Assembly: GCA_003151775.1 (NCBI GenBank) | Contig: PLYK01000002.1 | Coordinates: 1 to 35,565, forward strand | Direction: 5' to 3' | Source of the DNA: Geobacter sp. | GTDB lineage: Bacteria; Desulfobacterota; Desulfuromonadia; Geobacterales; Pseudopelobacteraceae | DNA length: 35,565 bases | Shown here: positions 6,083 through 28,468 of the stretch, piece by piece | How the letters are laid out: each line of letters opens with the position of its first letter | Numbering within the stretch: position 1 is the stretch's first letter | Translations under genes and position numbers: made by a program | The notes under the pieces: model-generated | Databases searched by the model: none | The model's input: only the letters and a program-made list of their open reading frames with translations | What the model was told of the DNA's origin: nothing

Positions 6083-6246
6083 CAGTATCTTCTACGCATC
6101 TTTAAGATCTGTGTACCGTGGGGCTGAGTAATGTCTATTTTTTGCTTTACATCGAAAGCGATTATTGATATAAAAATAGATAACACACCCGCCATGCCTC
6201 TCAACGATGCACACTTTGGTGGGTTTTTTACGTCTAGGGGCTGCCA
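6083..6246 (+). ncRNA. Candidate structured RNA upstream of the Abi_2/AbiF-type gene
   Basis: This 160-bp stretch has no ORF on either strand. It ends in a stem-loop, ACCCGCCA (6187-6194) with TGGTGGGT (6217-6224), followed by a T6 run, just 17 bp before the Abi start. A terminator directly in front of the gene implies a short transcript ending there. AbiF-type HEPN proteins are reported to be encoded with an upstream RNA that acts as antitoxin, and position and structure here fit that. The 5' end is not determined; the AT-rich sequence around 6130-6180 may contain the promoter. Confidence 0.45.
6187..6229 (+). terminator. Rho-independent terminator upstream of the Abi gene
   Basis: An 8-bp stem with one G-U pair (ACCCGCCA/TGGTGGGT) encloses a 22-nt loop and is followed by TTTTTT. 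It probably forms the 3' end of the candidate RNA rather than ending an upstream protein gene, since none is present. Confidence 0.6.
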
Positions 6247-11278: not shown

Positions 11279-12058
11279 ATGAATAAATTGAAGATACAAA
11301 ACCTCCCCATTATGAACGCAGTTATGGTTTCGCTGACACTCCATGTCCTGGCAGGATGGGTTTTCCTGCAAGTTTCGCGAGACATAACGAATCATAGAGT
11401 TGTACCGCCTGTCGAATTTTTCGTCGTCCCCCCCCCGACACCTGAACACGTAACACCGGTTGTACCCCAGCCTGCGGTGAAACCGGCACAAAAAAATGTG
11501 GCTGCACGCCTTCAGCAGGTTCCTCCGCCAACGCCGGTCGCAACAAGCAAGCCGGCCAACGAAAGCCCCGTGGTACCGAGCCAGATAAAGCAAAAGATTG
11601 AAGCAGCGCCTCCGCCATCTGCCGTCCCACCCATTGCAGCATCCCCGCAAGCTAAGGCACCGTCTCCCCTCCATGCTGCCGGCCCGGCATCAGCGGCCGT
11701 CGCTGCCGCTCCTTCCGCTTCAAGTTCACAGGCTTCCTCGCGGAGCACCACGGAAAGAAACAATGACACCGGAACGGTCATCGGACCGAGCTTCGATGCC
11801 GGCTACCTGAACAACCCCGTTCCGCCGTATCCCGCCGCCGCCAAAAAACTGAAGCTGCAAGGGACCGCCGTTGTTCGGGTACTCGTCTCTCCTGAAGGGC
11901 AACCGAAGAATGTCGCATTGGAAAAAACGTCGGGGGTACGGATACTCGATGAGACCGCCGTGGAAACGGTAAAGCGTTGGTCGTTCGTTCCGGCACGGTG
12001 CGGTAGCAACCGCATTGCGGCATGGGTCGATGTCCCCATCAAGTTTCGATTGAACTGA
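11279..12058 (+). CDS. TonB-family energy transducer
   Basis: The architecture is classical TonB. An N-terminal membrane anchor (IMNAVMVSLTLHVLAGWVFLQV, about 11-32) has the His typical of the TonB/TolA helix. A periplasmic linker of about 130 residues is rich in P, A, V and K. The C-terminal domain starts LNNPVPPYPAAAKKLKLQGTAVVRVLVSPEGQPKNVALEKTSG and ends in a W-S-F-V-PAR segment (about 170-259). It would couple the ExbB-ExbD proton motor to outer-membrane receptors. It is followed 25 bp later by a TonB-dependent receptor, with exbB, exbD and a second receptor downstream in the same direction, so the cluster is probably self-contained. Confidence 0.9.
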   Translation: MNKLKIQNLPIMNAVMVSLTLHVLAGWVFLQVSRDITNHRVVPPVEFFVVPPPTPEHVTPVVPQPAVKPAQKNVAARLQQVPPPTPVATSKPANESPVVPSQIKQKIEAAPPPSAVPPIAASPQAKAPSPLHAAGPASAAVAAAPSASSSQASSRSTTERNNDTGTVIGPSFDAGYLNNPVPPYPAAAKKLKLQGTAVVRVLVSPEGQPKNVALEKTSGVRILDETAVETVKRWSFVPARCGSNRIAAWVDVPIKFRLN

Positions 12059-12083
12059 ACTTCTATTTCACAGGAGACAATTA

Positions 12084-14183
12084 GTGGGTGCGGAGCGCAG
12101 AAGATGGGTGTTGTTCAAACAATGTGCTGTATGTATTCGAAGACTCTTGGTAGTGATTATGGCTTCTTTTCCGATGACCGCTTTTGCCGGAGGCGTACAG
12201 ACGCTGGTGCCGGTGGAGGTGATCGACTCGGCGGAGAACCTTATCGGCAGCGCCGACTCCTCAACAGAAGGCACGGTCACCCCCAAGCAGATGGAAACCC
12301 GGCCACTGCTCCGCACCGGAGAACTCCTGGAAATGGTTCCCGGACTGGTGGTCAGCCAGCACAGCGGCGAAGGGAAGGCAAACCAATATTATCTGCGGGG
12401 ATTCAACCTCGACCATGGCACGGATCTGGCGACCACGGTGGCGGGCATGCCGGTCAATATGCCGACCCATGCCCACGGCCAGGGGTACTCCGATCTGAGC
12501 TTCCTGATTCCGGAGCTGATCAGCGGCATCCAGTACCGCAAGGGGCCATACTATGCCGACGAGGGGGACTTCTCCGCTGCCGGTGCAGTGCATATGGATT
12601 ACATGAACGAATTGAGGAAGAACATCGCTTCGACGACTGTCGGCACGGACGGATATGAGCGGCTGTTTGCCGCCGCTTCCAACAATCTGCTGAAAGGCAA
12701 ACTGCTCTACGCGCTGGAACTGTCTCACAATAACGGCCCATGGGAAAATCCGGATAACTACCGGAAGATCAACGGCGTGCTTCGCTACAGCCAAAACAAT
12801 GGACGGGATGACTTCGACATTACCGCCATGGCGTATTACGGCAAATGGAACGCCACGAACCAGGATGCGGACCGCGCCATTGCGGAAGGTCTGATATCCC
12901 GCTTTGGGACGCTCGATCCAAGCGACCAGGGGAATTCATACCGTTACAGTCTGTCCGGTAACTGGCAGCATACGGAGGAAAGCTCCGTCACCAAGGTGAC
13001 CGGCTACCTGATCGCCTATGGCATGGACCTGTATAATGATTTTACCTATTTCCTGGATAATCCCTCCCAGGGAGACCAATTCCATCAAGAGGACAAACGA
13101 ATCATTTCCGGCCTGAAGGCCAGCCGGACATGGCTGGGCAAACTGGCCGGCCATGACATGGACAACACCATCGGCGTGCAGATCCGCAACGACAATATCC
13201 CTTCGGTAAGCCTGTACAACACCCAGGCGACCAATCTGCTCGCAACCATCGTTCAAGACCATGTTTCGCAAACCAGTATCGGATTCTATTTCCAGAACGG
13301 CTTCAAGTGGGCGGAGAAGTTCCGGACCGTGGCAGGCGTGCGCGGCGACTATTACCACTGGCAGGTGAACGCCAATGTCCCGCAGAATTCCGGTGAAGCC
13401 GATGCCTTCCTCGCCAGCCCCAAACTGAGCATGATCTTCGGCCCTTGGGAAAAGACGGAGTTCTTTATCAACGGCGGTTACGGCTTCCACAGCAATGACG
13501 GAAGGGGCGTGACCGAAACGGTCGATACGTCGTCAGGCCAGCCGGTCTCCAAGGTTACCCCGCTGGTCAAGGCGTACGGAGCCGAGGTCGGCACACGTAC
13601 CGCCATAATCCCGCACCTGCAAAACGAACTGACGTTCTGGTTCCTCAACATTGGTTCGGAGCTCACCTTTGACGGTGATCACGGGGTCATCTCGCACAGC
13701 TATCCGAGCCGCCGCTATGGCGTAGAATGGGCAAACTTCTATACGCCGGTCCCCTGGTTCACGCTGGACGCCGACTTTGCCTGTTCCTATGCCCGCTTTA
13801 AAGATGATCCCTTCGGCTCCTACATTCCCGGGTCTCCGGAAGGGGTCATCTCCGCAGGCGCTGCCATCGACGATATCCGCGGTTTTTTCGGGAGCCTTCG
13901 GCTGCGATACTTTGGGGCACGCCCACTGATCGATGACAACAGCGTCCGCTCAAATCCCAGCACAATCGTCAATGGCCGTGTCGGCTACAAATTTCATGAC
14001 AAGCCTTTTGCAGGGTGGCGGCTTTTTGTGGATGTGTTCAACATCTTCAACGTGAAAACAAGCAATATCGACTATTACTACACCTCAAGACTCCCCGGGG
14101 AACCGCCCGGCGGCGTAAACGATGTCCACACGCACCAGGAAGAGCCTCTAGAAGCGCGGGTCACCCTGGAAATGAAATTTTAG
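12084..14183 (+). CDS. TonB-dependent outer-membrane receptor 1
   Basis: This 699-aa protein has a GTG start with AGGAGA 9 nt upstream and a signal peptide ending near MASFPMTAFAGG. The plug domain follows, with ELLEMVPGLVVSQHSGEGKANQYYLRGFNLDHGTD and GMPVNMPTHAHGQGYSDLSFLIPELISGIQYRKGPYYADEGDFSAAG. About 500 residues of beta-barrel follow, ending VTLEMKF with the required terminal Phe. No obvious TonB box at the N-terminus was pinned down. The HAHGQGY-DLSFLIPE region is typical of a broad proteobacterial receptor family without known ligand. One conserved His-rich stretch in the plug and a HTH near the C-terminus (NDVHTHQEEP) hint at metal or metal-chelate ligands, which is inference only. 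Confidence 0.9.
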   Translation: MGAERRRWVLFKQCAVCIRRLLVVIMASFPMTAFAGGVQTLVPVEVIDSAENLIGSADSSTEGTVTPKQMETRPLLRTGELLEMVPGLVVSQHSGEGKANQYYLRGFNLDHGTDLATTVAGMPVNMPTHAHGQGYSDLSFLIPELISGIQYRKGPYYADEGDFSAAGAVHMDYMNELRKNIASTTVGTDGYERLFAAASNNLLKGKLLYALELSHNNGPWENPDNYRKINGVLRYSQNNGRDDFDITAMAYYGKWNATNQDADRAIAEGLISRFGTLDPSDQGNSYRYSLSGNWQHTEESSVTKVTGYLIAYGMDLYNDFTYFLDNPSQGDQFHQEDKRIISGLKASRTWLGKLAGHDMDNTIGVQIRNDNIPSVSLYNTQATNLLATIVQDHVSQTSIGFYFQNGFKWAEKFRTVAGVRGDYYHWQVNANVPQNSGEADAFLASPKLSMIFGPWEKTEFFINGGYGFHSNDGRGVTETVDTSSGQPVSKVTPLVKAYGAEVGTRTAIIPHLQNELTFWFLNIGSELTFDGDHGVISHSYPSRRYGVEWANFYTPVPWFTLDADFACSYARFKDDPFGSYIPGSPEGVISAGAAIDDIRGFFGSLRLRYFGARPLIDDNSVRSNPSTIVNGRVGYKFHDKPFAGWRLFVDVFNIFNVKTSNIDYYYTSRLPGEPPGGVNDVHTHQEEPLEARVTLEMKF

Positions 14184-14193
14184 GAGTATTGCG

Positions 14194-15111
14194 ATGATAC
14201 GTATAATGATGGTCATAGCTTTGATCCTGTCCCTTGCTGGTTGCGGTGACAGCGGGTCTGCTCCCACTTTTACCGAAACGGCAACCGGAACGGTGATGAC
14301 TTCTTCCGACGGCAGCACATGGTCCGGCCCGGTATCGATAACGGCAGACAAGGAGTTGAATAGTATCACCTACGGCAGTAGCCAATTCGTTGCAGTTGGT
14401 CAGGATGGAACCATTTTGACCTCTGCCGACGGCGCCGCCTGGACCAGCCAAAAATCAGGCACCATAAATTCTCTCTATGGGATCACCTTCGCCAACGGGC
14501 AATTTGTCGCTGTGGGGGATGCGGGCACTATACTCACCTCTCTCGACGGCGTCTCCTGGTCTGGGCAGAGCTCCGGCGCGCCGGCCCAATTAACCGGCGT
14601 AACCTTCGGCAACGGTAAATATATTGCGGTCGGGGCAAGCGCCATCCTGACCTCTCCCGACGGCGTGACCTGGACTACGCAGCTTTATGGCCCGACACGG
14701 TACTTTTACAGCGTTGTCTTCGGAAACGGTCAATTCGTTATTGCAAGCGATTCCGGCGGCATCATGACCTCCACCGACGGCGCTACCTGGACTGGCCGAA
14801 AATCGGGTACCGCCGGCAACCTGTACGGCATCACTTTCGGTGGCAGTCAGTTTGTTGCCGTGGGCGTGGAGACTATCCTTACCTCTCCCGACGGTGTTGT
14901 GTGGACAGCCCGTTCATCAGGTTCGACAAGCAATCTGGTCGGCTTAACCTATGCCAACGGCCAATATATTGTCGTCGGTAATACCATCGCAATAAACAGC
15001 ACAGGGTTCATCCTGACTTCTCCCGATGGCGTCAACTGGACCAGACAAGCGACGACAAGCAATCTGTATGGGGTTGCTTTCGGCGCCGGCAAATTTATCT
15101 CGGTTGGATAG
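14194..15111 (+). CDS. Lipoprotein with repeated 'VAVG..GTILTSPDG..WT' units (beta-propeller-like)
   Basis: The signal MIRIMMVIALILSLAGC ends in a lipobox (L-A-G-C at about 14-17). The rest is six to seven repeats of about 40 residues, each with a version of TFGNGQFVAVGDAGTILTSLDGVSWSGQSSGT. The S/T-x-DG-x-x-W motif is the Asp-box-like signature of BNR/HCF136-type propellers, so a single seven-bladed propeller on the membrane surface is likely. It starts 11 bp after receptor 1 and precedes exbB, so it is co-transcribed with the TonB system. Placement suggests a receptor-associated surface lipoprotein that binds substrate. Adhesin-like repeats are the alternative. Cys-17 is followed by G-D. 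Confidence 0.75.
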   Translation: MIRIMMVIALILSLAGCGDSGSAPTFTETATGTVMTSSDGSTWSGPVSITADKELNSITYGSSQFVAVGQDGTILTSADGAAWTSQKSGTINSLYGITFANGQFVAVGDAGTILTSLDGVSWSGQSSGAPAQLTGVTFGNGKYIAVGASAILTSPDGVTWTTQLYGPTRYFYSVVFGNGQFVIASDSGGIMTSTDGATWTGRKSGTAGNLYGITFGGSQFVAVGVETILTSPDGVVWTARSSGSTSNLVGLTYANGQYIVVGNTIAINSTGFILTSPDGVNWTRQATTSNLYGVAFGAGKFISVG

Positions 15112-15185
15112 TCGGATAGCGGAACGATACGCGGTTTGGTGCTCGGACGGGTTATTTAAAACTAATGTTCTCGGAGGTATTTCTT

Positions 15186-15857
15186 GTGGGCCTTTTGATC
15201 GGCACCGGTGTTGTTGTCAGGATTGTCCTGCTCATTCTCATGGGGTTCTCGGTCCTGTCGTGGACCATCATCATGTTCAAGTTTTTCCAGATCCATAAAG
15301 CCAACAGCAATTCCGAGAATTTCATGGATTTTTTTTGGAAATCCAAACGCTTTGACGCCATCGCTTCCCAGGTGGACCGTTTCAACAGTTCGCCTTTGAC
15401 GATGCTCTTCAACGAGGGATACGGCGAGTTGGGCAAGTTTATGGAAGGGAGAGACAAGGCCGACACCAGCATCCTCAGCACCGACCTGGGGGGTATCGAA
15501 AACGTCTCCCGCGCCTTGCGCCGCGCCACCAATTCGGAGATCACCCGTCTCGAAAAATACACCACCTTCCTGGCGACCACCGGCTCCACCTCGCCGTTCA
15601 TCGGCCTGTTCGGGACGGTCTGGGGCATCATGACCGCCTTTCAGGGGATCGGCAAAACCGGTTCCGCCTCGCTGGCCGTGGTGGCCCCCGGTATCGCGGA
15701 GGCGCTGATCGCCACTGCCATCGGCCTGGTGGCCGCCATCCCGGCCGTCATGGCCTACAATCATTTCCAGCACAAGATCCGGGTGATGATCAATGAGATG
15801 GACAGCTTCTCCACCGAGTTTCTCAATATAGTGCAACGAAACGTGGCAGGGAAATAA
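15186..15857 (+). CDS. exbB: ExbB/TolQ-family proton-channel protein
   Basis: The family fold is clear: a first membrane helix (VVVRIVLLILMGFSVLSWTIIMFKFFQI), a long cytoplasmic region, then FLATTGSTSPFIGLFGTVWGIMTAFQGIGKTGSASLAVVAPGIAEALIATAIGLVAAIPAVMAYNHF. The last holds the two conserved pore helices and the G-x-x-GTVxGI motif. The start is the GTG at 15186 because GGAGGT sits 7 nt upstream; the tracked ATG at 15165 lies upstream of that site. With ExbD, encoded 3 bp downstream, it forms the pmf-driven motor for TonB. ExbB rather than TolQ is preferred because TonB and receptor genes flank it and no tolA, tolB or pal is present. Confidence 0.9.
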   Translation: MGLLIGTGVVVRIVLLILMGFSVLSWTIIMFKFFQIHKANSNSENFMDFFWKSKRFDAIASQVDRFNSSPLTMLFNEGYGELGKFMEGRDKADTSILSTDLGGIENVSRALRRATNSEITRLEKYTTFLATTGSTSPFIGLFGTVWGIMTAFQGIGKTGSASLAVVAPGIAEALIATAIGLVAAIPAVMAYNHFQHKIRVMINEMDSFSTEFLNIVQRNVAGK

Positions 15858-15860
15858 GCG

Positions 15861-16274
15861 ATGGCGATGGGCGGACGTAATGACAACAGGGGCACGATGT
15901 CGGAGATAAACGTCACCCCGCTGGTTGACGTCATGCTGGTGCTCCTGGTTATCTTCATGGTGACCGCGCCGATGATGCAGCAGGGGGTCCAGGTAAACCT
16001 TCCCAAAGCCGACACCAAGGCCATGAATCCGGCGGAGGAAACGGTCGTGGTCACCGTGGACAAGAACAACAAGGTCTTCATCAACAAGGAGGAAACCCCG
16101 GTAGGTGATCTGCGCTCCAAGCTGACAGACATGTTCGCCACGCGGACCAAGAAAGAGGTTTTCCTCAAGGCCGACGCGAGCGTCCCCTACGGCGAGGTCG
16201 TCAGGATCATGGCCGACATCAAGGGTGCCGGGATTGAGCGGCTCGGCATGGTGACGGAACCGGCTCCGAAATAA
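15861..16274 (+). CDS. exbD: ExbD/TolR-family protein
   Basis: The 137-aa protein has a short cytoplasmic start (MGGRNDNRGTMSEINVTPLVDVMLVLLVIFMVTAPMMQQGVQVNLPKA). This includes the conserved N-V-T-P-L-V-D-V helix with the essential Asp that carries protons. The periplasmic domain follows (VVVTVDKNNKVFINKEETPVGDLRSKL...VFLKADASVPYGEVVRIMADIKGAGIERLGMVTEP). It starts 3 bp after exbB, so the two are coupled. Together they form the proton-driven motor for TonB. Confidence 0.92.
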   Translation: MAMGGRNDNRGTMSEINVTPLVDVMLVLLVIFMVTAPMMQQGVQVNLPKADTKAMNPAEETVVVTVDKNNKVFINKEETPVGDLRSKLTDMFATRTKKEVFLKADASVPYGEVVRIMADIKGAGIERLGMVTEPAPK

Positions 16275-16320
16275 TCCAAAACCGGTAGCGTGAAGGTGCG
16301 CTCCAAGGAGGCAGGTATCA

Positions 16321-16950
16321 ATGGGACTCATAAGAATCTTACTGATGGCGGTGGTGCTGGTCATATTGGCCTCAGCCGCAACATTCGGGCATGGTCTCGG
16401 TATAGAAATGGATCAGCAAGGCAGGGAACTCTCCAGCAAGGACCAGTCAGACCTTGCGGAATGGGAAGCATTGGATCAGCAAGTCAGGGACTTCTCTAAT
16501 AAAGGGCAGTACGACCGTGCTATGGTGGCGGCGGAAAAGGCGCTGGAGATTGCCAAACAAAGCGCTTATCTCAGCGAAGCGGGCGCTGTGGGCGTGAGCA
16601 CATCCAGTCTGGCAATCGGTTACTATAATCAGGCCCAATATGCGCAGGCCGAACCGCTATTCCAATTATTGTTAAACATGTATGAAAAAAAGCCGGGTCC
16701 TGATAACCCCACGGTCGCCGCCATCCTCAACAACCTGGGGAGTGTTCATGAACACCAGGGCCACATTGCGCAGGCCGAAACACTATACAAACGCGCACTG
16801 GAAATTGATGAAAACGTTCTTGGTCCCGATCACGCCAATGTGGCTGTCGCTCTCAAAAATTTAGCAGGCATATACAGGTTGACTCATCGAGATGTTGATG
16901 CCGCCAGACTCGAACAACGGGCGGCAGCCATTGAGGCTATCAAGCGATGA
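16321..16950 (+). CDS. Exported tetratricopeptide-repeat protein
   Basis: A signal peptide (MGLIRILLMAVVLVILASAATFGHG) precedes three to four TPR units. The visible ones are QYDRAMVAAEKALEIAKQS, IGYYNQAQYAQAEPLFQLLLNMYEKKPGPDNPTVAAILNNLGSVHEHQGHIAQAETLYKRALEIDENVLGPDHANVAVALKNLAGIY. The 42-residue spacing with GPDHPxVA is the kinesin-light-chain/NPH3-like TPR type. An AAGGAGG motif precedes the ATG. It lies between exbD and receptor 2. Related TonB clusters often carry a TPR protein (as in the TPR-ExbB-ExbD-TonB sets), so a scaffold role for the energy complex is plausible. Confidence 0.82.
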   Translation: MGLIRILLMAVVLVILASAATFGHGLGIEMDQQGRELSSKDQSDLAEWEALDQQVRDFSNKGQYDRAMVAAEKALEIAKQSAYLSEAGAVGVSTSSLAIGYYNQAQYAQAEPLFQLLLNMYEKKPGPDNPTVAAILNNLGSVHEHQGHIAQAETLYKRALEIDENVLGPDHANVAVALKNLAGIYRLTHRDVDAARLEQRAAAIEAIKR

Positions 16951-16976
16951 CGGGTCATTGTCAAAGGAGAATCTGC

Positions 16977-19208
16977 ATGTACTCGCGCGTTTTTGACATT
17001 CTTATTGTCATGTTTTGCCCTTGTCCGGTCATTCGCTTTGTCGGAACCGGTTTCCGTGCCGGCCGGCACGTGAGCCTGTCCGCGTTAGTGGCATGCCTGC
17101 TGGGGAGCGTTGGCGCCCAGGCCCAGGAACTATCCGGGCAACAGACAGGTACGGACCAGGCGCAAACCAACATCACCACCCTTCCCACGGTTACAGTAGA
17201 GGAAAAGGCCCTGGACAACGCCCGTGCCCAGATCTCCCCCAATCTTGGCGCAACCAGTTATACGCTCGACAGCGAAAAGATCGATTCGCAATCGCAAGGA
17301 GAGTTCGCACCGTTCGACCAGACCTTCTACCGTTTTCCCGGTGTGGCTCAGGACGAACTCGACAAACGTCTTCATGTGCGCGGCGAGGAAGCCAACCTGC
17401 AATATCGTATCAATGGCCTGCTTCTTCCGGATGGGCTTTCCGGTTTCGGACAGGAACTTTCCTCGAAATTCCTCGATTCCGTATCGCTGATAACCGGCAC
17501 GCTGCCGGCCCAGTACGGCAACCGGACTGCCGGGATTGTCGACATTCAGACTAAGAGCGGCCAGGACCTGCATGGCGGCACGGTATCGGTTTATGGCGGC
17601 GGTTACAGCACGCTTATGCCGACAGTCGAATACGGCGGCAGCAGCGGCCGATTCTCAGGTTATGGGATTGCCGGCTATCTGCACAACAGCATCGGCATGG
17701 CCAACCCGACCCCGAGTTTCCGACCGTCGCACGATGATACGGACCAATTCAAGGGGTTCGGCCATTTTTCCTATCTGATCGACGATACCAGCCGGCTGAC
17801 GTTGATCCTCAGTGGCGCCTACGGCACGTTTCAGCTCCCCACGACCGGCGGCCAGGCGCCGCAATTCCCCTATGGCCCGATTACCGCCTTCAACTCCTCC
17901 AACGTGAACGAGAACCAGTACGAGCAGGCATATTACGAAATTTTAGGTTACCAGAAGATCTTAGGGGATATCGACCTGCAAGTGACCCAAACGACCCGTT
18001 ACAGTAATATCTCCTTCAAGCCTGATACGGTTGGCGACGTGATCTTCAACGGCATCGCTACGGATACCAGCCATCAACTTGTTTCCAACAACCTGCAATT
18101 CGACGTCAGCGACCGCATCAACGATCAACACACCCTGCGGGGCGGCATGTCCATCAGTGTGCAGCAAGCAAGGGTAAACTCCACGGATACAGTGCTGCCG
18201 GTCACTTCGACCGGCTCAGGCTCGCCCGCCTATGGCTTGCCCTTTCCGATTGTCGATAACTATCATAAAACCGCAGAGCTTTATGGTGCGTACCTGCAGG
18301 ACGAATGGCGTCTTACTCCTAAGTTTACGGTCAACTACGGAGTGAGGGGCGATTTATGGACCGCCTTTATCACCGAGTCTCAAATCAGCCCGCGCATCAA
18401 CTTCGTCTACAAGCCGGTCCAGCCGACAACGCTGCATGCGGGCTACGGCCGCTATTTCACCCCTCCGCCCCTCGAACTCATCCAGTCTGCGGACGTGGCG
18501 AAATTCAACGGCACGACCAACGCCGTGGATCCCTCCTTTGCTGCAAACGCGGCGGTTGCGGTTAAAAGCGAGCGCTATCATTACTTCGATGTGGGGGTCA
18601 ACCAGGACATTACGCCCAATCTCCATGTCGGAGTGGATGCGTACTATAAGATTAAAAAGTATGTGCTCGATGAGGGACAGTTTGGCCCGGCAATGATCTT
18701 TTCGCCGAATAACGGGGATCAGGCTCACGTCCGCGGCGTGGAAGTGACCGTTTCCTACGAAAAAAACGGTTTTTCGCTCTGGGGCAATGCCGCACGCAGC
18801 CAAGCCATGGCGAAAGGCATTGTAACCGGGCAGTGGCAGTTCACGCCCGACGAAGTCGCTTATATGCAAAACCATTGGTATCACCTGGATCACGATCAGG
18901 ATTGGACCGCCTCGGCCGGAACATCCTATAAATGGGACAATACCAAGGTGTATGCCGACATGCTGTACGGAAGCGGGCTCTACGGCGGCCCCAACAATGC
19001 GACTGAGATGCCGAGCTATGAGACGGTCAACCTCGGCATGACCCACACCTTTGTCCTGAGCCCCGGCAATGAGCTTAAAGTGAGGCTCGATGTGACCAAC
19101 GTGGCGGATCTCAAGTATGAGATCCGGGATGGGGGCGGGATCGGGGTTTTTGCGCCGCAGTATCTTCCCCGGCGAGCAGTTTATGTTGGGCTCTCGAAGA
19201 ATTTTTAA
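16977..19208 (+). CDS. TonB-dependent outer-membrane receptor 2
   Basis: The start ATG at 16977 has an AAAGGAGA motif 6 nt upstream, so the tracked start at 16947, inside the TPR gene, is rejected. A long signal peptide ends around LVACLLGSVGAQAQ. The N-terminal strand TLPTVTVEEKA is a TonB-box-like segment. The plug (FDQTFYRFPGVAQDELDKRLHVRGEEANLQYRINGLLLPDG...FLDSVSLITGTLPAQYGNRTAGIVDIQTKSG) follows, then a barrel ending AVYVGLSKNF with terminal Phe. The total is 743 aa. It has the large-ligand receptor look (R-G-x-x-x-x-x-QYRINGLLLPDG), but no ligand can be assigned. The operon ends with it; the strong terminator is 125 bp downstream. Confidence 0.9.
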   Translation: MYSRVFDILIVMFCPCPVIRFVGTGFRAGRHVSLSALVACLLGSVGAQAQELSGQQTGTDQAQTNITTLPTVTVEEKALDNARAQISPNLGATSYTLDSEKIDSQSQGEFAPFDQTFYRFPGVAQDELDKRLHVRGEEANLQYRINGLLLPDGLSGFGQELSSKFLDSVSLITGTLPAQYGNRTAGIVDIQTKSGQDLHGGTVSVYGGGYSTLMPTVEYGGSSGRFSGYGIAGYLHNSIGMANPTPSFRPSHDDTDQFKGFGHFSYLIDDTSRLTLILSGAYGTFQLPTTGGQAPQFPYGPITAFNSSNVNENQYEQAYYEILGYQKILGDIDLQVTQTTRYSNISFKPDTVGDVIFNGIATDTSHQLVSNNLQFDVSDRINDQHTLRGGMSISVQQARVNSTDTVLPVTSTGSGSPAYGLPFPIVDNYHKTAELYGAYLQDEWRLTPKFTVNYGVRGDLWTAFITESQISPRINFVYKPVQPTTLHAGYGRYFTPPPLELIQSADVAKFNGTTNAVDPSFAANAAVAVKSERYHYFDVGVNQDITPNLHVGVDAYYKIKKYVLDEGQFGPAMIFSPNNGDQAHVRGVEVTVSYEKNGFSLWGNAARSQAMAKGIVTGQWQFTPDEVAYMQNHWYHLDHDQDWTASAGTSYKWDNTKVYADMLYGSGLYGGPNNATEMPSYETVNLGMTHTFVLSPGNELKVRLDVTNVADLKYEIRDGGGIGVFAPQYLPRRAVYVGLSKNF

Positions 19209-20105: not shown

Positions 20106-21914
20106 TTATTCCTGGAAAACAATTGGGTTAAAGGTAATAGCGGCGTTAGTCGTGTTGCTGAAGGTCAGCGGTACGGTTACCGAAGTGCCGGCGGGAATGC
20201 CGTTGGACGTAGCGCGGATCATCGGCTCGCCGTTTTGCGAACCGGTAGCGTTGGTCAGCCTGGCGTTGCTTTTGAGGGCAACGCTGCTGGCGTTGACGGT
20301 GGATTTGCCGGTGGCCGGATTGTTAGCGATCATCGAGGTTTGAATAGAAGAAACACCTGCATTTTGCGTTATTTTGCTGGAGGTGGCGTACATGTTGGAC
20401 GGGGTGCCGATCATGTTGAGGTCGATCATACCGTCCAGGACCACGTCGACGGCACCGTTGATGTCCGTCGTGCTGTTGTTGGTAACGGTCAAGGTGCCGT
20501 AGTAGAGCTTGGTGGCGCGGTTGTAGACGAGGTTGCTGGTGGTCGCGGTGACCTGCGGCGTAACGTTGGCGGTGAAGTGATGGAGCACGGTGGTCTCAAT
20601 CGGTTGGAGGTACAGATGGCCGGAGATTCCGTCGTTTGCCGGGAAGGTATTCGACAACGGGTAATCCGTAGTTAGTGATGTTTGGCCGGTGACCTGGTTG
20701 GCGGTCATGGTTAAGGTATTGCCCTCCACGTCGAAGGTCATGAACTCATCGGCCGGCCAGGCGGTGATGACGTGCGGGTAGGAGCCGGTGTTGGTCATGT
20801 CGGGCTGATAGATCGGTGCGCCGCCGCCGCCGCTGGTCATGTGCGGCATGTTGAGCGCGATCGGGTCGGTGCCAGCCTGTGCGGCGTTATAAGCGCCGGC
20901 GCGGGCATAGTTGTGGCTGTGGCCGCCGTAGAGGAAGTCCACATTGTACTGCTGGAATATCGGCGACGATGCCTGCTCATAAATTCTCATGGCGGTACTG
21001 TCGGCGTCGGAACCGGCGGTATAGGTTCCCTCATGGAAACAGACGATCTTCCACGGTTTGGTGGTGGCGGCGAGATCGGCGGTAACCCAGTTATACTGTG
21101 CGGAGCCGGGGGTGAGGGGAGAGTACACGTCGATGAAGGTGATGTGAACCGGGCCGTAATCCATGGACCAGTACAGGTTGTTGTAGGTTGACGTCTTGCC
21201 GCTTTGAAGCGTCTCGTTCGGATACGGGAAGGGGAAGTACTTCGGGAAGGTGGTGCTGTAGCCCGAGGTGTTGTCGTGGTTGCCCTTGACGCCGTCGATC
21301 GGGGTGCTTGCGGTGAAGGCGCGGGAGGCGCGTTTGGTCAGGTCGAACCACTCGGTGGTCCAGTTGCTTTCGGCGTCAGAGGCTACCCAGTCGCCGTTGT
21401 GAATGGACAGACGCTGATAATCGCCATTGCCGGGCAGGCCATAAAAGCCGGTGATGGCCTTCATGATGTCGTTCAGGACGAACGGGTTGCCCCTGGAGTC
21501 GCCCTGGCCGATGAATCTGACAGACGTTGCGCTTTCTGAAGGGGCGGTAATGAACGAACCGGTGCCGTAGACGCCGTTGGTGTCGTCGGCCACCTGGTAG
21601 TAATACATGGTGTTCGGCTGCAGCCCGGTGATCTTGTAGCGGTGCTGGTTGACCACGCCGCCCCTGCCGGGGGTGGTGTTGCTCTCTTCCGGTACGGTCA
21701 CGCTGTTCAGGCTGTAGGTGGTGTCGGTGCCCCAGCTCAGTGTGTTGGTTGTCTCTGTGGCGCTATCCTGCCAGAGCACGGTCATCGTGGTGTTGGGCAT
21801 CTCGTAGATGAGATAGGGTGATTTCAGGATGCCGGCGAATGCGCTGGTGCCGAGCAGGGAGAAGGCCGAGACGAGGCCCAGGGTCTGCAGGGTTTTCTTT
21901 GTAGTGAGTTTCAT
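20106..21914 (-). CDS. Secreted purple-acid-phosphatase-like metallophosphoesterase
   Basis: A signal peptide (MKLTTKKTLQTLGLVSAFSLLGTSAFA) is followed by an FN3-like N-terminal domain (VTVPEE...HRYKITGLQPNTMYYYQVADD), characteristic of purple acid phosphatases. The catalytic domain has GQGDSRGN, IHNGDWV, VKGNHDNT, CFHEGTY and GGHSHNYARAG, so the metal ligands are all present. From about residue 400 to 602 there is a C-terminal beta-rich domain (VTVTNNSTTDINGAVDVVLDGMIDL...), similar to a cell-surface DUF11-like or transglutaminase-like accessory fold. It has an excellent Shine-Dalgarno sequence (AAAGGAGATACA). Likely role: extracellular phosphomonoester hydrolysis for phosphate gain. The substrate is unproven. 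Confidence 0.85.
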   Translation of the reverse strand: MKLTTKKTLQTLGLVSAFSLLGTSAFAGILKSPYLIYEMPNTTMTVLWQDSATETTNTLSWGTDTTYSLNSVTVPEESNTTPGRGGVVNQHRYKITGLQPNTMYYYQVADDTNGVYGTGSFITAPSESATSVRFIGQGDSRGNPFVLNDIMKAITGFYGLPGNGDYQRLSIHNGDWVASDAESNWTTEWFDLTKRASRAFTASTPIDGVKGNHDNTSGYSTTFPKYFPFPYPNETLQSGKTSTYNNLYWSMDYGPVHITFIDVYSPLTPGSAQYNWVTADLAATTKPWKIVCFHEGTYTAGSDADSTAMRIYEQASSPIFQQYNVDFLYGGHSHNYARAGAYNAAQAGTDPIALNMPHMTSGGGGAPIYQPDMTNTGSYPHVITAWPADEFMTFDVEGNTLTMTANQVTGQTSLTTDYPLSNTFPANDGISGHLYLQPIETTVLHHFTANVTPQVTATTSNLVYNRATKLYYGTLTVTNNSTTDINGAVDVVLDGMIDLNMIGTPSNMYATSSKITQNAGVSSIQTSMIANNPATGKSTVNASSVALKSNARLTNATGSQNGEPMIRATSNGIPAGTSVTVPLTFSNTTNAAITFNPIVFQE

Positions 21915-22092: not shown

Positions 22093-22782
22093 TTAATCTT
22101 GTGTAAACCTTCCTCTCGATTGCGACATCTCCTGGGTTCTTGTGCCCGACGGCAACGGTTGGGGCGCAGACGTCGCCCCTGTGACCGTAAATTCCCAGAT
22201 TCGGGCTATTGCGGAAAACTCGAACTGTCCTTTCGCCGGAACAGAGTCGAACAGCCTCTGCAGGGCGTCGCCCGAGGCGTTCGAGCGGTACAGATAGGCC
22301 AGATTCAGGTGTTCGTTCTTTACCTCGTCAAACAGCATGTTGTATTCGATCCGCACTGCGTTTTGCGGGCGGTCAAAGTGGATGTTCTCGATAGAAAGCC
22401 AAATGGAGTAGATTGCGATGTCATTTCTCGTCACCCTGGTGACCTTCACCGGATATTGTTTGCCGTTGACCGACACCGACAGCTTTTTATCCAGATACGG
22501 CTGAATGAATTCGGTCGCTATCCGTTGCAGTTGAGCATCTGAAGCTGACGCATAATTGGAATATCTGTGCTTCAGACCGCCCATATCGGAAAAGAGCGGT
22601 TCATTCAGGTCGATCGTAGCAATGATGCCTTTTGTCCCCACACGCCATTTCGATCCGCCCAAGGGCGTCTTGTAGGTGCTGCCGGGCATGGCTGATCCAA
22701 GAAGAAAGACCGCGCCGAGAAGCAAGAAGAGCAGTAAGTAATATTTTTTCCCCAGTGAACGTATCACGTCAGTTCTCCTCAT
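22093..22782 (-). CDS. Signal-anchored hypothetical protein (229 aa)
   Basis: One hydrophobic N-terminal segment (KKYYLLLFLLLGAVFLLGSAMPGS) could be a signal peptide or anchor. The remainder is about 190 residues of mixed alpha/beta: KWRVGTKGIIATIDLNEPLFSDMGGLKHRYSNY, QLQRIATEFIQPYLDKKLSVSVNGKQYPVKVTRV, then IRIEYNMLFDEVKNEHLNLAYLYRS. The end, TSAPQPLPSGTRTQEMSQSRGRFTQD, is polar and probably disordered. I do not recognise a family. It lies 167 bp behind the riboswitch-controlled exported protein and ahead of the phosphatase, all on the minus strand. All four genes encode exported products, so a shared surface function is possible. Confidence 0.6.
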   Translation of the reverse strand: MRRTDVIRSLGKKYYLLLFLLLGAVFLLGSAMPGSTYKTPLGGSKWRVGTKGIIATIDLNEPLFSDMGGLKHRYSNYASASDAQLQRIATEFIQPYLDKKLSVSVNGKQYPVKVTRVTRNDIAIYSIWLSIENIHFDRPQNAVRIEYNMLFDEVKNEHLNLAYLYRSNASGDALQRLFDSVPAKGQFEFSAIARIWEFTVTGATSAPQPLPSGTRTQEMSQSRGRFTQD

Positions 22783-22949: not shown

Positions 22950-24002
22950 TCAATTCGTCACGATTGCAATTTCCGCCGCCTTGCCGTGTGAAGCATTTCC
23001 CGAATCCGCCAGGTAGTTTGCGGTGAAAATGTATTCGATTAGAACCTGACGGTTTGGTTTGCCTTCCCATGTGCCTGCGGCGACCCGTTCGGTACGGAAG
23101 CGGTCAAGCTCGGCAAGGAAATTCTTCTCGGCGATGCCGTTGTCGATCTTGACTTGGGGAGCCACCACCAGGGGAAGTTCGTATATCTTCCCGCCGGTCC
23201 TGATAATCAGCCTGGCATCCCAGGTGCCTTTGTTCGGCAGCGCGGTTATTACCCAACCCCTTCCATCCTCCTTCGCCAGGTTCACCAGTTTCGCATCCGA
23301 CAAGGCGATATCCGGCGTATCTGCCGAGTCCCGCAGCAGGGCGGGAGCGATCCTAACGAGCGTTTTCCCGTCGGAAAGGAGTACGGTCGGTTCCTGAATG
23401 TTCCTGTCGCCCGGACTGCGATTAAAAAGCGCGGTAAAGGCTTTCAGCCCTTTTTTCCCTTTGAAATCCTTGAAACGCTGCAGTACGCTTTGCCCTGGAA
23501 TCACCTGTTCAGCGCTGCCGCCGGCGGCTCCGGTCTCAGCTAACGCCGCTTTTTCCTCATCCTGTGGCTGTGGCAGCAAGACATCAGGGGAGGAAGCGTA
23601 CGGAAGGGTTTGGGTGGGGGAGACGGTCCCGTCCGGACCGGCAATAGTGCCGGTCACGGAATAGATCCTTCCCGGCCGATCACCCTTTTTATCGAAGCTC
23701 AGATGGTATGTCTGCGTGTCGAAATCTCCTTGGACCGCCTTGATGATCAGCGTGTCGGTGATGGCATCGTTGATGTCGGTCACGGAACCCTGCTCCACGC
23801 TCACCCGGGGGTTGGTAAAACCCAGTGAATCATAGGCAATGGTCAGTTCGACCTCCGAATTGGGTTTGATATCGGCTCCTTCGATGATGAATTCCTTGTC
23901 GCCGTCCGCGGCGACGTAAAAGGTTACCTGCGCCAATGACGGCGTCGGGTGCAGGAGGGCAAGCAAAAGGCCCATGAGGCATAGATGTTTTTTCGTCTTC
24001 AT
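22950..24002 (-). CDS. Riboswitch-controlled exported protein with cohesin-like N-terminal domain
   Basis: I use the ATG at 24002: GGAGAAGAGAATAGCCCT precedes it and a normal signal peptide follows (MKTKKHLCLMGLLLALLHPTPSLAQ). The tracked start at 24173 would run through the riboswitch. The mature N-terminus VTFYVAADGDKEFIIEGADIKPNSEVELTIAYDSLGFTNPRVSVEQG resembles a cohesin/adhesin-type beta sandwich. The middle (about 165-210) is Ala/Glu-rich and helical, and the C-terminal half is mixed alpha/beta. No catalytic motif is visible. The GEMM riboswitch and terminator directly upstream link expression to a cyclic dinucleotide, the usual control of surface, biofilm or electron-transfer proteins in Geobacter-like bacteria. 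The exact role is unknown. Confidence 0.72.
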   Translation of the reverse strand: MKTKKHLCLMGLLLALLHPTPSLAQVTFYVAADGDKEFIIEGADIKPNSEVELTIAYDSLGFTNPRVSVEQGSVTDINDAITDTLIIKAVQGDFDTQTYHLSFDKKGDRPGRIYSVTGTIAGPDGTVSPTQTLPYASSPDVLLPQPQDEEKAALAETGAAGGSAEQVIPGQSVLQRFKDFKGKKGLKAFTALFNRSPGDRNIQEPTVLLSDGKTLVRIAPALLRDSADTPDIALSDAKLVNLAKEDGRGWVITALPNKGTWDARLIIRTGGKIYELPLVVAPQVKIDNGIAEKNFLAELDRFRTERVAAGTWEGKPNRQVLIEYIFTANYLADSGNASHGKAAEIAIVTN

Positions 24003-24096
24003 AGGGCTATTCTCTTCTCCATTGCTGATGCCGGAACCTGACACAACGGAGGGGCTGTTGCCGGCTACACTGCCGGGCCGAAGTACAGAACGGCGC

Positions 24097-24142
24097 AAAA
24101 AAAGCCGGGCGCGCTTTCCTGAGAGAAAGGCAACCCGGCTTT
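24097..24142 (-). terminator. Intrinsic terminator forming the riboswitch expression platform
   Basis: On the minus strand AGCCGGG (24140-24134) pairs with CCCGGCT (24109-24103), followed by seven Us. The 5' arm is the 3' part of the aptamer (GCCGGG), so ligand binding and termination compete for the same bases. That predicts an ON switch, with ligand favouring read-through. Confidence 0.75.
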
Positions 24143-24206
24143 CCGCTTGGGACCCGTGGCTTTCCGTCCCCACCTCGCGATGGGTTTGGCGAATATGATA
24201 TGGCTG
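24129..24206 (-). promoter_or_regulatory. GEMM-I-type (cyclic-di-GMP/cGAMP) riboswitch
   Basis: Read on the minus strand the sequence has the GEMM-I core in order. CCAAACC opens it; a P1b-like stem CCCATC/GGTGGG is capped by a GCGA tetraloop; GGGACGGAAAGCC follows; then a CGGG...CCC arm and GCCGGGTTGCC. These match the conserved blocks of the c-di-GMP-I class, including the GNRA loop. The 5' side of P1 (ATATCATATTCG) is divergent, so I cannot read the ligand-selecting position. Geobacter members of this class bind c-di-GMP or 3',3'-cGAMP. The aptamer lies about 125 nt upstream of the exported-protein start. Confidence 0.78.
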
Positions 24207-24443: not shown

Positions 24444-25589
24444 TCAGATGTTCAGAAACGGGCACTCCGGGTCGGGGGCGTCGAAATCGCCGGCAACGAA
24501 CCCGGACACGGCGCGGCACCCCCCCTTGCAGATCTCCAGGTAATCGCAGGAGATACAGGGCTCCGGGGCGCGTTTGGGCCATGCGCGCAGGCGCGTGAGC
24601 TGTTCCGAGCCGCTCCAGAGACGGGGAAGATCAAAGATGCTTTCCTCCCCCTTCAAAAAGGAGCAGCCGGCAAATCTGCCGTCGGAGCGGACTCCCAAGA
24701 GGACGTTGGCGGCCTCGCAGCCGTAGACCGAGAACTGTTCCATCAGCGCCTTGTCCGGTTTGTGCCAGCAGAACATCGGGACGAACGAACAGTCGATCTT
24801 GGCCGCAACCCCGTACTTACGGGAAAGGTCCCTGATCATGGGGTAGAATTCCCGGTTCTGCGCCGGCGTCAACCGCCTTTCGAAATAGTCCGCGGTCGCC
24901 CGCCCGGTTGGTTTGAGCCGGAGGAACTCCACGTCGGTAAGCCCCCTCCCTGCGGCAAAGCCGAACACGCTTGTCAGCCGGTCGAAATTGACGCGGCTGA
25001 CTACGCAGTTAATGCCGACCTTGATCCCGGCAGCGAGCAGGAGATCCACCGCCATCACCCTATCCGCGAGCGGCCCCGTTCCCTGGGCAGCTTCAGCCAG
25101 GGCCTCGCTGTCGTCGATGCTGACGTTGACCTGGCCGAAGACGCGGCACTGTTCGGCGATCTCTCTGGTTATCAGGTGGCCGTTGGTGGTCAGGTTCGGG
25201 ACCATGCCGCGCTCGCGCACGTAGGAGGCCAAGTCGAAGAAGTCCGGCCGCTCCAGGGCCTCGCCACCACCCAGCGCCATGTGGAAGACACCCATCCCGG
25301 CAAGGAGATCGACGGCCCTGCGGAAATCGTCGGCCGACATCTCACCAGTATCCCTCTCCCCTGAGTCCATGTAGCAGTGTCCGCAGTTCTGCGAGCAGGC
25401 GTTGGTGACGGAAAAATGGACCTCCAGTGGGGCGCTGAGCAGGGCGGTCGTTGCATCATCTACCCAGAGCGGGCTCTCGGAGTGACCCAGACTGCGCATG
25501 AAGTCCTGGTCCACGTGCACGAGCATGGGAGGCTCTTCCAAAGCCAGGACCCCTCCGAACGACTCCAGGCGGTACTTCATTCCGGGCAT
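24444..25589 (-). CDS. Radical SAM/SPASM enzyme, probable peptide maturase
   Basis: The radical SAM cluster motif CxxxCxxC is C65-S-Q-N-C69-G-H-C72 (FSVTNACSQNCGHCYMDSGE). The GGE-like SAM motif is ALGGGEALERPDFF. The C-terminal SPASM region has YGCEAANVLLGVRSDGRFAGCSF and then CISCDYLEICKGGCRAV...DPECPFL, enough cysteines for one or two extra Fe-S clusters. The N-terminal 50 residues (YRLESFGGVLALEEPPMLVHVDQDFMRSLG) may be a leader-binding extension. Its start overlaps the end of the 72-aa peptide gene, so enzyme and peptide are co-translated. SPASM enzymes of this sort commonly install thioether, C-C or epimerised residues in ribosomal peptides. The modified substrate here is presumed to be the adjacent peptide. 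Confidence 0.85.
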   Translation of the reverse strand: MPGMKYRLESFGGVLALEEPPMLVHVDQDFMRSLGHSESPLWVDDATTALLSAPLEVHFSVTNACSQNCGHCYMDSGERDTGEMSADDFRRAVDLLAGMGVFHMALGGGEALERPDFFDLASYVRERGMVPNLTTNGHLITREIAEQCRVFGQVNVSIDDSEALAEAAQGTGPLADRVMAVDLLLAAGIKVGINCVVSRVNFDRLTSVFGFAAGRGLTDVEFLRLKPTGRATADYFERRLTPAQNREFYPMIRDLSRKYGVAAKIDCSFVPMFCWHKPDKALMEQFSVYGCEAANVLLGVRSDGRFAGCSFLKGEESIFDLPRLWSGSEQLTRLRAWPKRAPEPCISCDYLEICKGGCRAVSGFVAGDFDAPDPECPFLNI

Positions 25590-25795
25590 CCCTGTTCCTC
25601 TCCGAGGGGGGGCGTCTCCGCCGACTCCTCCGGCAGCTTTGCCTCTTTTGGTTTTGTCGAGCAGATGATCGCGGCCATGGTGTTGAAGAGGACCGTGATG
25701 GCGGCCCCGGCAGTGAAGAAGACGATCATGTCGACGCCGATGCTGCTGGAGTTCGGGTTGTAGCCGGTTTTGATCTTGAGGATTTTCCCTTGCAT
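25577..25795 (-). CDS. 72-aa peptide, candidate substrate of the adjacent radical SAM enzyme
   Basis: MQGKILKIKTGYNPNSSSIGVDMIVFFTAGAAITVLFN... has a polar N-terminal 20 residues, one hydrophobic helix (VDMIVFFTAGAAITVLFNTMAAIICS) and a charged, Glu/Pro-rich C-terminus ending EEQGCPE. AAAGGA precedes the start, and the gene sits 4 bp after the TPR gene. Its stop overlaps the radical SAM start by about 13 nt. Position and size fit a precursor peptide, though the helix could mean a small membrane subunit instead. Only two cysteines (in IICS and GCPE) are available for thioether chemistry. I do not claim a known RiPP class. Confidence 0.6.
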   Translation of the reverse strand: MQGKILKIKTGYNPNSSSIGVDMIVFFTAGAAITVLFNTMAAIICSTKPKEAKLPEESAETPPLGEEQGCPE

Positions 25796-25799
25796 GTGG

Positions 25800-26960
25800 T
25801 TACATTCCTTTTCTGAATTCGCCGATGAGGTAGTCGTACTTGACGCCGAAGACGCTGACGATCTCCGGTCCGGCCGGGTTGTAGGCGATGAACAGGAAGA
25901 CGACCGCCACGGTCATCACCACGGCCAGCAGCGGGCTGACCAGGCGGAGCGCCCGGCGTCGGGTCTGCCAGAACTCTCCCCTGGTCAGGAGGATCAGCCA
26001 GACAATGACCGGAAGGTTGAGGGCGGCGAGCGTGTAGATCTGGGTATCCTTGATGACGTACTTATAGCCGTCGGTCTCCATGGAATAGAAGAACGGCATC
26101 TTGGCTGCCGAGAGCACGACCCATAGAACGGTCCAGATCAGGAGGGTCCTGATCGAGGCCCGGTCGATCCGTTGCCACGGTTTCATAAGCAGTACCGGGA
26201 ACCAGAGCGCCGCCACGATTACCCAGGCTACCCACTTCCAAGTCGAGTTCATCTCCCAGTATTTGTGGTTGTCATCTGCTATGATCTGGTCGGTGGACGA
26301 GAGTTTGTGCCCCGGAGTCTGTGCGGCGACGGCCTGCAAGGCGGCATAACTCTCCTTGGGTTTGTGCATGCGGTCGTAGGCGTAGGCGATTTCCTTCTCA
26401 ACATCAACCTTCAACGAGAAATCGGGGTAATCCTTGAGCAACTGCTCGTAGTTTGTTACCAGATACTGATCCCCCTTGTTGGCGAACCTGATTTTCTGGT
26501 AGCTCTTGAATGCTTGATCCTGGTTCGCCGTCTTTGCAAGGGCAGCAAGATTCTCCAGTTTCTGTTTGAATATGGGGGCCTGCCGGTAGTCGGCGTACTT
26601 CTTCAGGTACTCATGGTTCCATCTGATCGCTTTCTTCAGATCAACCAGGTTGTCCTCATAGATGGTGCTGAGCATCTGCACCGCGTAGCGGCGCTCAGTG
26701 CTTTTTGGGTATTTCCCGGCAATCTTCAAAAAGACGGACTCTGCCTCGGCATAGCGGCCATGGAGAAACGCATCCGAGGCCTTCTCCTTCAACGCGGCAA
26801 CCTCAGAAAGCTTCGGCTTTTGCTCGACAATCTCCGGAACCTTCGACTTTTGCTCGTTTGCCACGGGACTTTCCTGCTCCGCCAGGCCGGTTGCGGGCCA
26901 CCGGACAAGGAATACAAAAAACACCAGAACAAACAGTGAGAATGGCCTGGAGTACCGCAT
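25800..26960 (-). CDS. TPR-containing inner-membrane protein of the radical SAM operon
   Basis: A signal or anchor helix (RPFSLFVLVFFVFLVRWPATGLA) starts the chain; the ATG at 26960 places it at residue 1, so I prefer it to the track start. TPR-like helices follow (about 50-200): HGRYAEAESVFLKIAGKYPKSTERRYAVQ, YRQAPIFKQKLENLAALAKTANQ, YEQLLKDYPDFSLKVDVEKEIAYAYDRMH. The C-terminal third has four or five membrane helices (WKWVAWVIVAALWFPVLLM, LLIWTVLWVVLSAAKM, ALNLPVIVWLILL, LVSPLLAVVMTVAVVFLFIAY). It is the first gene of the operon. A scaffold, export or docking role for the modified peptide is plausible; no transporter or peptidase motif is present. Confidence 0.72.
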   Translation of the reverse strand: MRYSRPFSLFVLVFFVFLVRWPATGLAEQESPVANEQKSKVPEIVEQKPKLSEVAALKEKASDAFLHGRYAEAESVFLKIAGKYPKSTERRYAVQMLSTIYEDNLVDLKKAIRWNHEYLKKYADYRQAPIFKQKLENLAALAKTANQDQAFKSYQKIRFANKGDQYLVTNYEQLLKDYPDFSLKVDVEKEIAYAYDRMHKPKESYAALQAVAAQTPGHKLSSTDQIIADDNHKYWEMNSTWKWVAWVIVAALWFPVLLMKPWQRIDRASIRTLLIWTVLWVVLSAAKMPFFYSMETDGYKYVIKDTQIYTLAALNLPVIVWLILLTRGEFWQTRRRALRLVSPLLAVVMTVAVVFLFIAYNPAGPEIVSVFGVKYDYLIGEFRKGM

Positions 26961-27278
26961 GGCAACACCCTTCAACGGCTGCATTTCAGTTTTTGTCGAC
27001 ATGTCCCTCGCCTCGCTCAATTATTGCTGTTTAATTTGTGCGCAAACTTTATTTTTCATATGATTTTGGAAGTGAATGAATATCTAAGCAGGAGCATGTC
27101 CCTGCGCATAGCTGCAAGACATTAAGAGGTTCTTCAGCGCATTTCCTGATTGAGTTGTCGGAAAAATAATCTTACGAATAGCTCTGGACTATAGTCGTGA
27201 AATATTGCAGGTACATTTCGGAAGAGTTACTATTTAGTGTCCATCCGGAAACCCCAGTTTGAGACGCACTGGACGGAG

Positions 27279-27815: not shown

Positions 27816-27845
27816 GTGTCACGCGAACAGTCGTTTAGGTGACAC
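27816..27845. repeat. 7-bp inverted repeat around the resolvase start
   Basis: GTGTCAC and GTGACAC, 16 bp apart, lie just upstream of and overlapping the leader of the resolvase gene. This is a possible operator or recombination half-site of the element that carries the gene. Confidence 0.4.
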
Positions 27846-27847
27846 TT

Positions 27848-28468
27848 ATGCTCATTGGCTATATGCGGGTATCAAAGGCTGATGGCTCGCAGACCACAGA
27901 TCTTCAGCGCGATGCGCTCATCACAGCGGGTGTTGCTGCTGGTCATCTATATGAAGATAGGGCATCAGGCAAACTTGACGCCCGACCCGGGTTGGATGCC
28001 GCTTTGAAAGCTTTACGAGAAGGCGATACGTTGGTTGTCTGGAAATTGGATCGGCTTGGACGGAATCTCAGGCACCTGGTCAATACGGTTCATGATCTGG
28101 AAAAGAGGGGGATAGGATTTAAGGTTCTGTCCGGGCATGGGGCTTCGATTGACACAACAACCCCTGCCGGCAAGTTGGTGTTTGGCATCTTTGCCGCCCT
28201 CGCTGAGTTTGAACGGGAGCTTATATCCGAACGCACAAAAGCTGGTCTGGCATCAGCCCGTGCCCGCGGAAGGTCCGGCGGGGCGCCCTATAAGATGACT
28301 GCAGCTAAACTGCGACTCGCTATGGCGGCAATGGGACAACCGGAAACCAAGGTGGGAGAACTCTGCAAAGAACTAGGGATAACACGCCAGACTCTATACC
28401 GTCATGTAGCACCTGATGGCAGTCTGCGAGACGACGGAATGAAATTGTTGGGAGAAAGACGGAAATGA
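27848..28468 (+). CDS. Serine resolvase/invertase family recombinase
   Basis: The 206-aa protein has the resolvase layout: GYMRVSKADGSQTTDLQRDAL with the catalytic Ser in RVS, then YEDRASGKLDARPGLDAALKALREGDTLVVWKLDRLGRNLRHLVNTV with the conserved arginines. Further on come ATIDTTTP-like GASIDTTTPAGKLVFGIFAALAEFERELISERTKAGLASARARGRSGG, the long helix and basic arm, and a C-terminal HTH (KVGELCKELGITRQTLYRHV). I prefer the ATG at 27848; the tracked GTG at 27839 lies within the inverted repeat. It is not closely similar to the recombinase at 9406. No transposase follows, so it may be an orphan of a Tn3-like element. Confidence 0.9.
   Translation: MLIGYMRVSKADGSQTTDLQRDALITAGVAAGHLYEDRASGKLDARPGLDAALKALREGDTLVVWKLDRLGRNLRHLVNTVHDLEKRGIGFKVLSGHGASIDTTTPAGKLVFGIFAALAEFERELISERTKAGLASARARGRSGGAPYKMTAAKLRLAMAAMGQPETKVGELCKELGITRQTLYRHVAPDGSLRDDGMKLLGERRK

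Follow-up and report, generated by a model that had tools for sequence, protein, structure and literature searches.

The window analysed here, i.e. the whole stretch of 35,565 nucleotides, stems from a Geobacter-type draft assembly that is 84% complete. It contains a gene for a 72-aa peptide with a predicted membrane helix, placed between the genes of a TPR membrane protein and a radical SAM/SPASM enzyme. Small peptides destined for cleavage and export are known substrates of radical SAM enzymes, as are soluble subunits. The question raised by this locus is whether the enzyme and the peptide belong together and, if so, what such an enzyme might do to a peptide of this kind.

Gene layout and the peptide family

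All three genes lie on the minus strand, in the order TPR membrane protein (25800-27002), peptide (25577-25795), and enzyme (24444-25589, 381 aa). The TPR gene starts with the ATG at 27002, with a Shine-Dalgarno-like stretch (GAGGCGAGGG), and its stop is separated from the start of the peptide gene by a gap of 4 bp (25796-25799). The overlap of the peptide and enzyme genes is 13 bp with the first ATG of the enzyme, and 4 bp (ATGA, which contains the TGA stop of the peptide) with the second ATG at 25580, which is favoured by the alignment and is the likely start. The original prediction had described the same three ORFs, with this gene order, the 4-bp gap, and a short overlap, and the ORF positions bear this out; only its end of the locus, at 26960, lies about 40 bp short of the TPR start.

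Homologous triplets are present in Geobacter, Geobacteraceae, and Geomesophilobacter, among them that of a cultured strain, Geomesophilobacter sediminis Red875 (L021). The peptide is 62-68% identical in three further Geobacteraceae-type genomes, each of which has the same triplet, and it is found in several phyla, so that chance can be ruled out as an explanation of the triplet. With the four Geobacteraceae peptides as queries, 15 peptide loci were retrieved from a collection of species-representative genomes; they belong to Geobacteraceae/Geobacter, Raymondbacteria, Planctomycetota/Phycisphaerae, Deltaproteobacteria, Bacteroidales, Fibrobacterota, and Caldisericota. The loci sampled are mostly from metagenome-assembled genomes. 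A peptide search in 97 relatives yielded matches at chance level only (0.01-0.08); both L010, which has in-frame stops, and L011, which lies in a non-coding frame, were rejected.

Alignment of the peptides for conserved core residues, which had been proposed together with the original prediction, revealed a hyperconserved stretch, G[KR][IV]L[KR][VI]Kx-GYNPNSSSx[GA][ST]. Of the hydrophobic helix that comes after it, only the character is conserved. In the window, this juxtamembrane motif reads GKILKIKTGYNPNSSSIG (peptide residues 3-20; 25736-25789, minus strand). The family was extended to 37 peptides, gathered by pattern and profile searches and aligned on the motif, a procedure by which strongly diverged members would be missed. 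N-P-N-S-S is invariant in all 37, the third Ser is either Ser or Gly, and the stretch can also be written NPNSS[SG]x[GA]. The position directly before it (-1) is variable and can be Y, H, F, M, or P. Neither a conserved Glu in the motif of the 37 peptides nor a conserved Cys in the alignments of the family was found. Among the Geobacteraceae peptide genes, many synonymous codon differences have accumulated, and motif codons 3-22 show 0-2 replacements per pair. The peptide gave zero matches in NCBIfam or Pfam and none to PDB sequences, and a text search of the open-access literature for GYNPNSSS or NPNSSS retrieved no paper.

The membrane helix of the original prediction was recovered by hydropathy as a single predicted helix at about residues 19-44 (25664-25739, minus strand). 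The stretch before the motif is basic, with a charge of +1 to +5, and in several peptides both sides of the helix carry positive charge. By the positive-inside rule, with these charges as the sole basis, the motif is predicted to be cytoplasmic.

The number of peptides per enzyme is not fixed: several genomes encode two, and one (G912) encodes three, and the helices of the paralogues show family-specific conservation. The Caldisericota peptide has an altered motif, LNPNPNSSGHG, and its neighbour is a non-TPR protein. Extra peptide copies were observed in L091 (5706-9843, minus strand), overlapping the gene for a protein of 1287 aa for which 14 membrane helices are predicted, and in L093 (52-3466, minus strand), overlapping the gene for a protein-kinase-like protein of 1012 aa. 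These two copies suggest that the peptide family has other partners as well.

The enzyme and its linkage to the peptide

The enzyme matches the Radical_SAM family (PF04055) with 60.7 bits and carries both signatures of a radical SAM/SPASM protein. The first is the CxxxCxxC motif that binds the radical SAM 4Fe-4S cluster (C65, C69, C72; 25374-25397, minus strand). The second is the seven-Cys SPASM pattern C-x9-15-G-x4-C ... C-x2-C-x5-C-x3-C ... C, realised here as C291-x12-G-x4-C309, C345-x2-C348-x5-C354-x3-C358-x17-C376 (24462-24719, minus strand). All ten cluster cysteines are invariant in 24 homologues. The same is true of a further cysteine outside the SPASM seven, C267 in the sequence IDCSF (24789-24791, minus strand), which could be a hydrogen-atom donor or a further cluster ligand. 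For comparison, Cys372 of the PoyD epimerase has been proposed as a hydrogen-atom donor (review, PMC8326336). The AlphaFold model of the enzyme has a pLDDT of 77.5. Its first 53 residues are conserved and modelled with low confidence, and a recognition domain of the PqqD-like, winged-helix type might sit there.

The linkage of the two genes was evaluated from both sides. Outside Geobacteraceae, all 12 genomes in which the peptide had been found have exactly one strong enzyme match each. A search for the enzyme that made no use of the peptide retrieved 6 of 294 Planctomycetota genomes and, in the Fibrobacterota group, 7 of 151. Of these 13 genomes, ten were new, and three (G148, G151, G141) had turned up in the earlier peptide search. 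An independent peptide search then identified exactly these genomes in both sets; one additional match (E 0.007) falls outside the motif. The chance of such an exact overlap is about 1e-12 per set, a value that is uncorrected for relatedness.

The peptide and enzyme genes are adjacent in nearly all loci, the exceptions being contig breaks and G318. The latter seemed to be a case of an enzyme without a peptide and was rejected as such, as its peptide sits on another contig. In G835, the enzyme is split across two contigs, and the triplet is complete. The original prediction would have been undermined by enzyme homologues that mostly lack the peptide; instead, the peptide is present in every enzyme-bearing genome, and the proposed linkage is strongly supported by the identical genome sets.

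The TPR protein and the wider neighbourhood

The TPR protein combines a signal peptide and a TPR region with four membrane helices at its C-terminus. The TPR region resembles BamD/YbgF weakly, by fold (best E 5e-3). The window protein is homologous to the TPR-TM proteins of other phyla (hhalign probability 96.5, E 8e-10), with identities of 10-20% between phyla. A TPR-TM protein of this kind adjoins the peptide/enzyme pair in 21 loci, where the gene order takes one of three forms. The order TPR-peptide-enzyme is found in the window and in G101, G107, G113, G827, and G835, as well as in G408, G175, and G196, which have weaker TPR matches and the same four-helix layout. The order peptide-TPR-enzyme is found in L023, L025, L029, L030, L031, G145, G146, and G147 (in G145 the peptide is at the end of a separate contig), and enzyme-peptide-TPR is found in L022, L032, G912, and G803. 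That the same members occur in differing orders is better explained by a functional unit than by common descent alone.

A secreted purple-acid-phosphatase-like metallophosphoesterase (Pfam; 20106-21914, minus strand) is an associated, non-core neighbour in the window. Such proteins also lie near the triplet in those other Geobacteraceae loci whose contigs are long and, where enough flanking sequence is available, in most loci of other phyla; they were not seen in every locus. The triplet is followed by the gene for a secreted protein of an unnamed family (22950-24005, minus strand), a neighbour that is conserved in Geobacteraceae only. Upstream of this gene lies a c-di-GMP-I riboswitch (24126-24200, minus strand), and the phosphoesterase gene is located further downstream on the same strand. 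The riboswitch is also present at L016 (6790-6864, minus strand), the arrangement is conserved in Geomesophilobacter, and the riboswitch was not found in the loci of other phyla that were tested. Control of the triplet by c-di-GMP is unsupported, as the riboswitch is located between the enzyme gene and the gene that follows it.

Several further features of the surroundings were recorded. In G827 and G835, TonB-dependent receptors are immediate neighbours of the triplet; in the window they are further off, in a TonB uptake cluster (11279-19208, plus strand) of TonB, two TonB-dependent receptors, an ExbB-type channel protein, and a TPR protein. A 229-aa protein (22093-22782, minus strand) is homologous to the N-terminal half of a Geomesophilobacter HupE/UreJ-domain protein and has no membrane domain; Geomesophilobacter has short and full-length copies in tandem. 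Directly after the enzyme gene, the Geobacteraceae loci L021 (about 11409-11987, plus strand) and L017 (7171-7752, minus strand) encode a membrane protein of about 193 aa without a Pfam match, which is missing from the window. Upstream of the triplet, a perfect 21-nt inverted repeat (27279-27299/27416-27436), possibly the ends of a mobile element, lies just before a serine-recombinase-like gene (27839-28468). An abiF RNA and the Abi_2-family protein encoded directly downstream of it (6188-7221, plus strand) likely form an abortive-infection type defence unit.

Role of the peptide and comparison with known systems

The motif is nearly frozen across phyla while the membrane helix of the peptide drifts, and a single enzyme can be shared by two or three different peptides, both of which would be expected of a motif read by the enzyme. 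Modification of the peptide by the enzyme would be the simplest account, because no part of the peptide other than the motif is strongly conserved, the motif is common to paralogues with different helices, and the enzyme belongs to a group whose structurally solved members act on peptides. Retention of the modified peptide in the membrane is favoured because neither a protease nor an exporter was seen at the loci and no PqqD was found in the genome. The frozen motif, its position directly before the helix, and the constant TPR partner would be easier to reconcile with a modified structural or cofactor subunit than with a secreted product.

We therefore moderately favour a reading in which the enzyme is the dedicated maturase of a membrane-retained peptide that is a small subunit of a TPR complex with a phosphoesterase-linked function. 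The cytoplasmic enzyme would recognise the basic, strand-like GxILxVKx stretch of the peptide and modify the adjoining GxNPNSS, probably at a backbone or side-chain carbon of Asn or Ser. The peptide would be neither exported nor cut, and would be inserted into the membrane with the motif on the cytoplasmic side. There it may form a complex with the four-helix membrane domain of the TPR protein, and this complex could serve a periplasmic or cell-surface function tied to the secreted or membrane-bound purple-acid-phosphatase-like protein, a link suggested by the gene neighbourhood.

As to the chemistry, a reaction at the backbone or at Asn/Ser side chains is suggested by the invariance of Asn and Ser in the motif. 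Thioethers are excluded by the lack of a conserved Cys, the variability of position -1 speaks against Tyr as the reaction site, and the motif for formylglycine formation is absent from the peptide. Epimerisation on the one hand and oxidation or crosslinking of Ser/Asn on the other have similar, low probabilities. More tentatively, the SPASM enzyme might convert NPNSS of single-pass membrane micro-subunits into a functional group, e.g. D-residues or a protein-derived cofactor, that is required by a TPR-anchored machine in the membrane with ties to secreted purple-acid-phosphatase-like enzymes; this would be a protein-maturation system not described before.

Alternatively, the peptide might be a membrane anchor or recruiter, with GxNPNSS docking the enzyme and the nascent TPR protein or the phosphoesterase as the true substrate. 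The juxtamembrane, predicted cytoplasmic position of the motif would suit this role, and the TPR protein accompanies the enzyme almost as regularly as the peptide does. However, two or three peptide paralogues per enzyme would then be needless, the TPR proteins are too divergent between phyla for an equally conserved modification site, and the copies in L091 and L093 accompany other proteins; we consider this explanation unlikely.

The original prediction saw the hallmarks of a ribosomal-peptide modification pathway in this locus. The linkage of peptide and enzyme stands, whereas an ordinary natural-product pathway is unsupported, given a frozen motif before a membrane helix and a constant TPR partner. 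In such a pathway, the TM-like stretch would be removed and a modified GYNPNSSS fragment would be released by unlinked proteases and exporters as a natural product or signal. A radical SAM enzyme with a small peptide is the classical RiPP layout, and radical-SAM peptide cofactors such as mycofactocin are also patchy in distribution and well conserved (PMC3023750). However, the motif is N-terminal to the helix, and the family-specific conservation of the paralogous helices suggests that they matter in the mature protein. In addition, no exporter or protease gene was found beside the pair in the compared loci, in line with the original prediction, and such functions could be encoded elsewhere in the genome; the absence of PqqD, predicted for the locus, extends to the whole 84%-complete assembly (no PF05402 match). 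A secreted product thus appears quite improbable.

The phosphoesterase of several phyla forms a single protein with a CxxC thioredoxin-like domain and a membrane domain bearing a CcdA/DsbD-like GLLDGINPCAF motif, and this fusion adjoins a TlpA/ResA-like lipoprotein. The DsbD-like assignment stays at the level of the motif and a weak profile match, since a PDB search with the membrane-domain alignment matched purple acid phosphatases only, via one long row. These neighbours, and the redox cofactors that other SPASM enzymes make from proteins or peptides, might suggest that the modified peptide carries a redox or catalytic cofactor in the membrane and shuttles electrons between the cytoplasm and an enzyme of the periplasm, either a thiol-disulfide enzyme or a phosphoesterase, but key cysteines of the relay are missing in L025 and partly in L031, and no relay was seen beside the Geobacteraceae triplets, which makes this idea similarly improbable.

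A radical SAM enzyme with a dedicated small peptide is a known type of system. A near-frozen, membrane-retained peptide with a TPR membrane partner is new, as far as the open-access literature, NCBIfam, Pfam, and PDB go; no description of a radical SAM system with a membrane peptide, a metallophosphoesterase, or a TPR protein was found in that literature. If the dedicated-maturase reading is true, radical SAM chemistry would extend to membrane protein subunits, with a specific and readily testable substrate, and a function would be proposed for three families that are nameless in NCBIfam or Pfam, i.e. the peptide, the TPR-TM protein, and the enzyme subfamily.

The nearest named enzyme family by score is that of mycofactocin maturation (MftC, TIGR03962), which the enzyme matches with 155.8 bits against a cut-off of 265. 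The peptide motif, which precedes a membrane helix, is presumably unlike MftA, and a PqqD-like partner corresponding to MftB is missing from both the locus and the genome. The likeness consists in a small, conserved, and tightly co-occurring peptide (PMC3023750). The second-best score is obtained for the Geobacter-associated radical SAM/SPASM enzyme of GeoRSP (TIGR04303, 136.5 bits, cut-off 400), which is rejected on this score and for the same lack of a PqqD-type protein. PqqE (TIGR02109, 84.2 bits, cut-off 381) would require a PqqA-type Glu/Tyr peptide, which is absent, and the scores for heme-maturation enzyme families are below the cut-off as well. A sacti- or ranthipeptide is excluded in the absence of a conserved donor Cys in the peptide family, and anaerobic sulfatase maturation in the absence of its target, [CS]xPxR, as the conserved stretch contains no PxR. 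The best structural matches of the enzyme model are SuiB (streptide), PqqE, SkfB, TigE, and anSME, at 16-21% identity; the enzyme is closest to this group in sequence, too. All of them modify peptides or proteins, but their targets (Lys-Trp, Glu-Tyr, Cys, and [CS]xPxR) are not conserved in the peptide motif, and the substrates differ.

The comparison that we favour is with QhpD and its substrate QhpC, where a SPASM radical SAM enzyme likewise stands beside a small polypeptide that is a subunit of a cell-envelope enzyme and not a natural product (PMC7876137). As a subunit, QhpC is soluble and periplasmic, contains Cys-Asp/Glu thioethers, has its leader cut by QhpE, and is exported by QhpF (PMC7876137). 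In contrast, the window peptide has a membrane helix and comes without a conserved Cys, a protease, or an exporter. The window system would thus be comparable in logic to QhpD acting on QhpC, yet stand outside that system.
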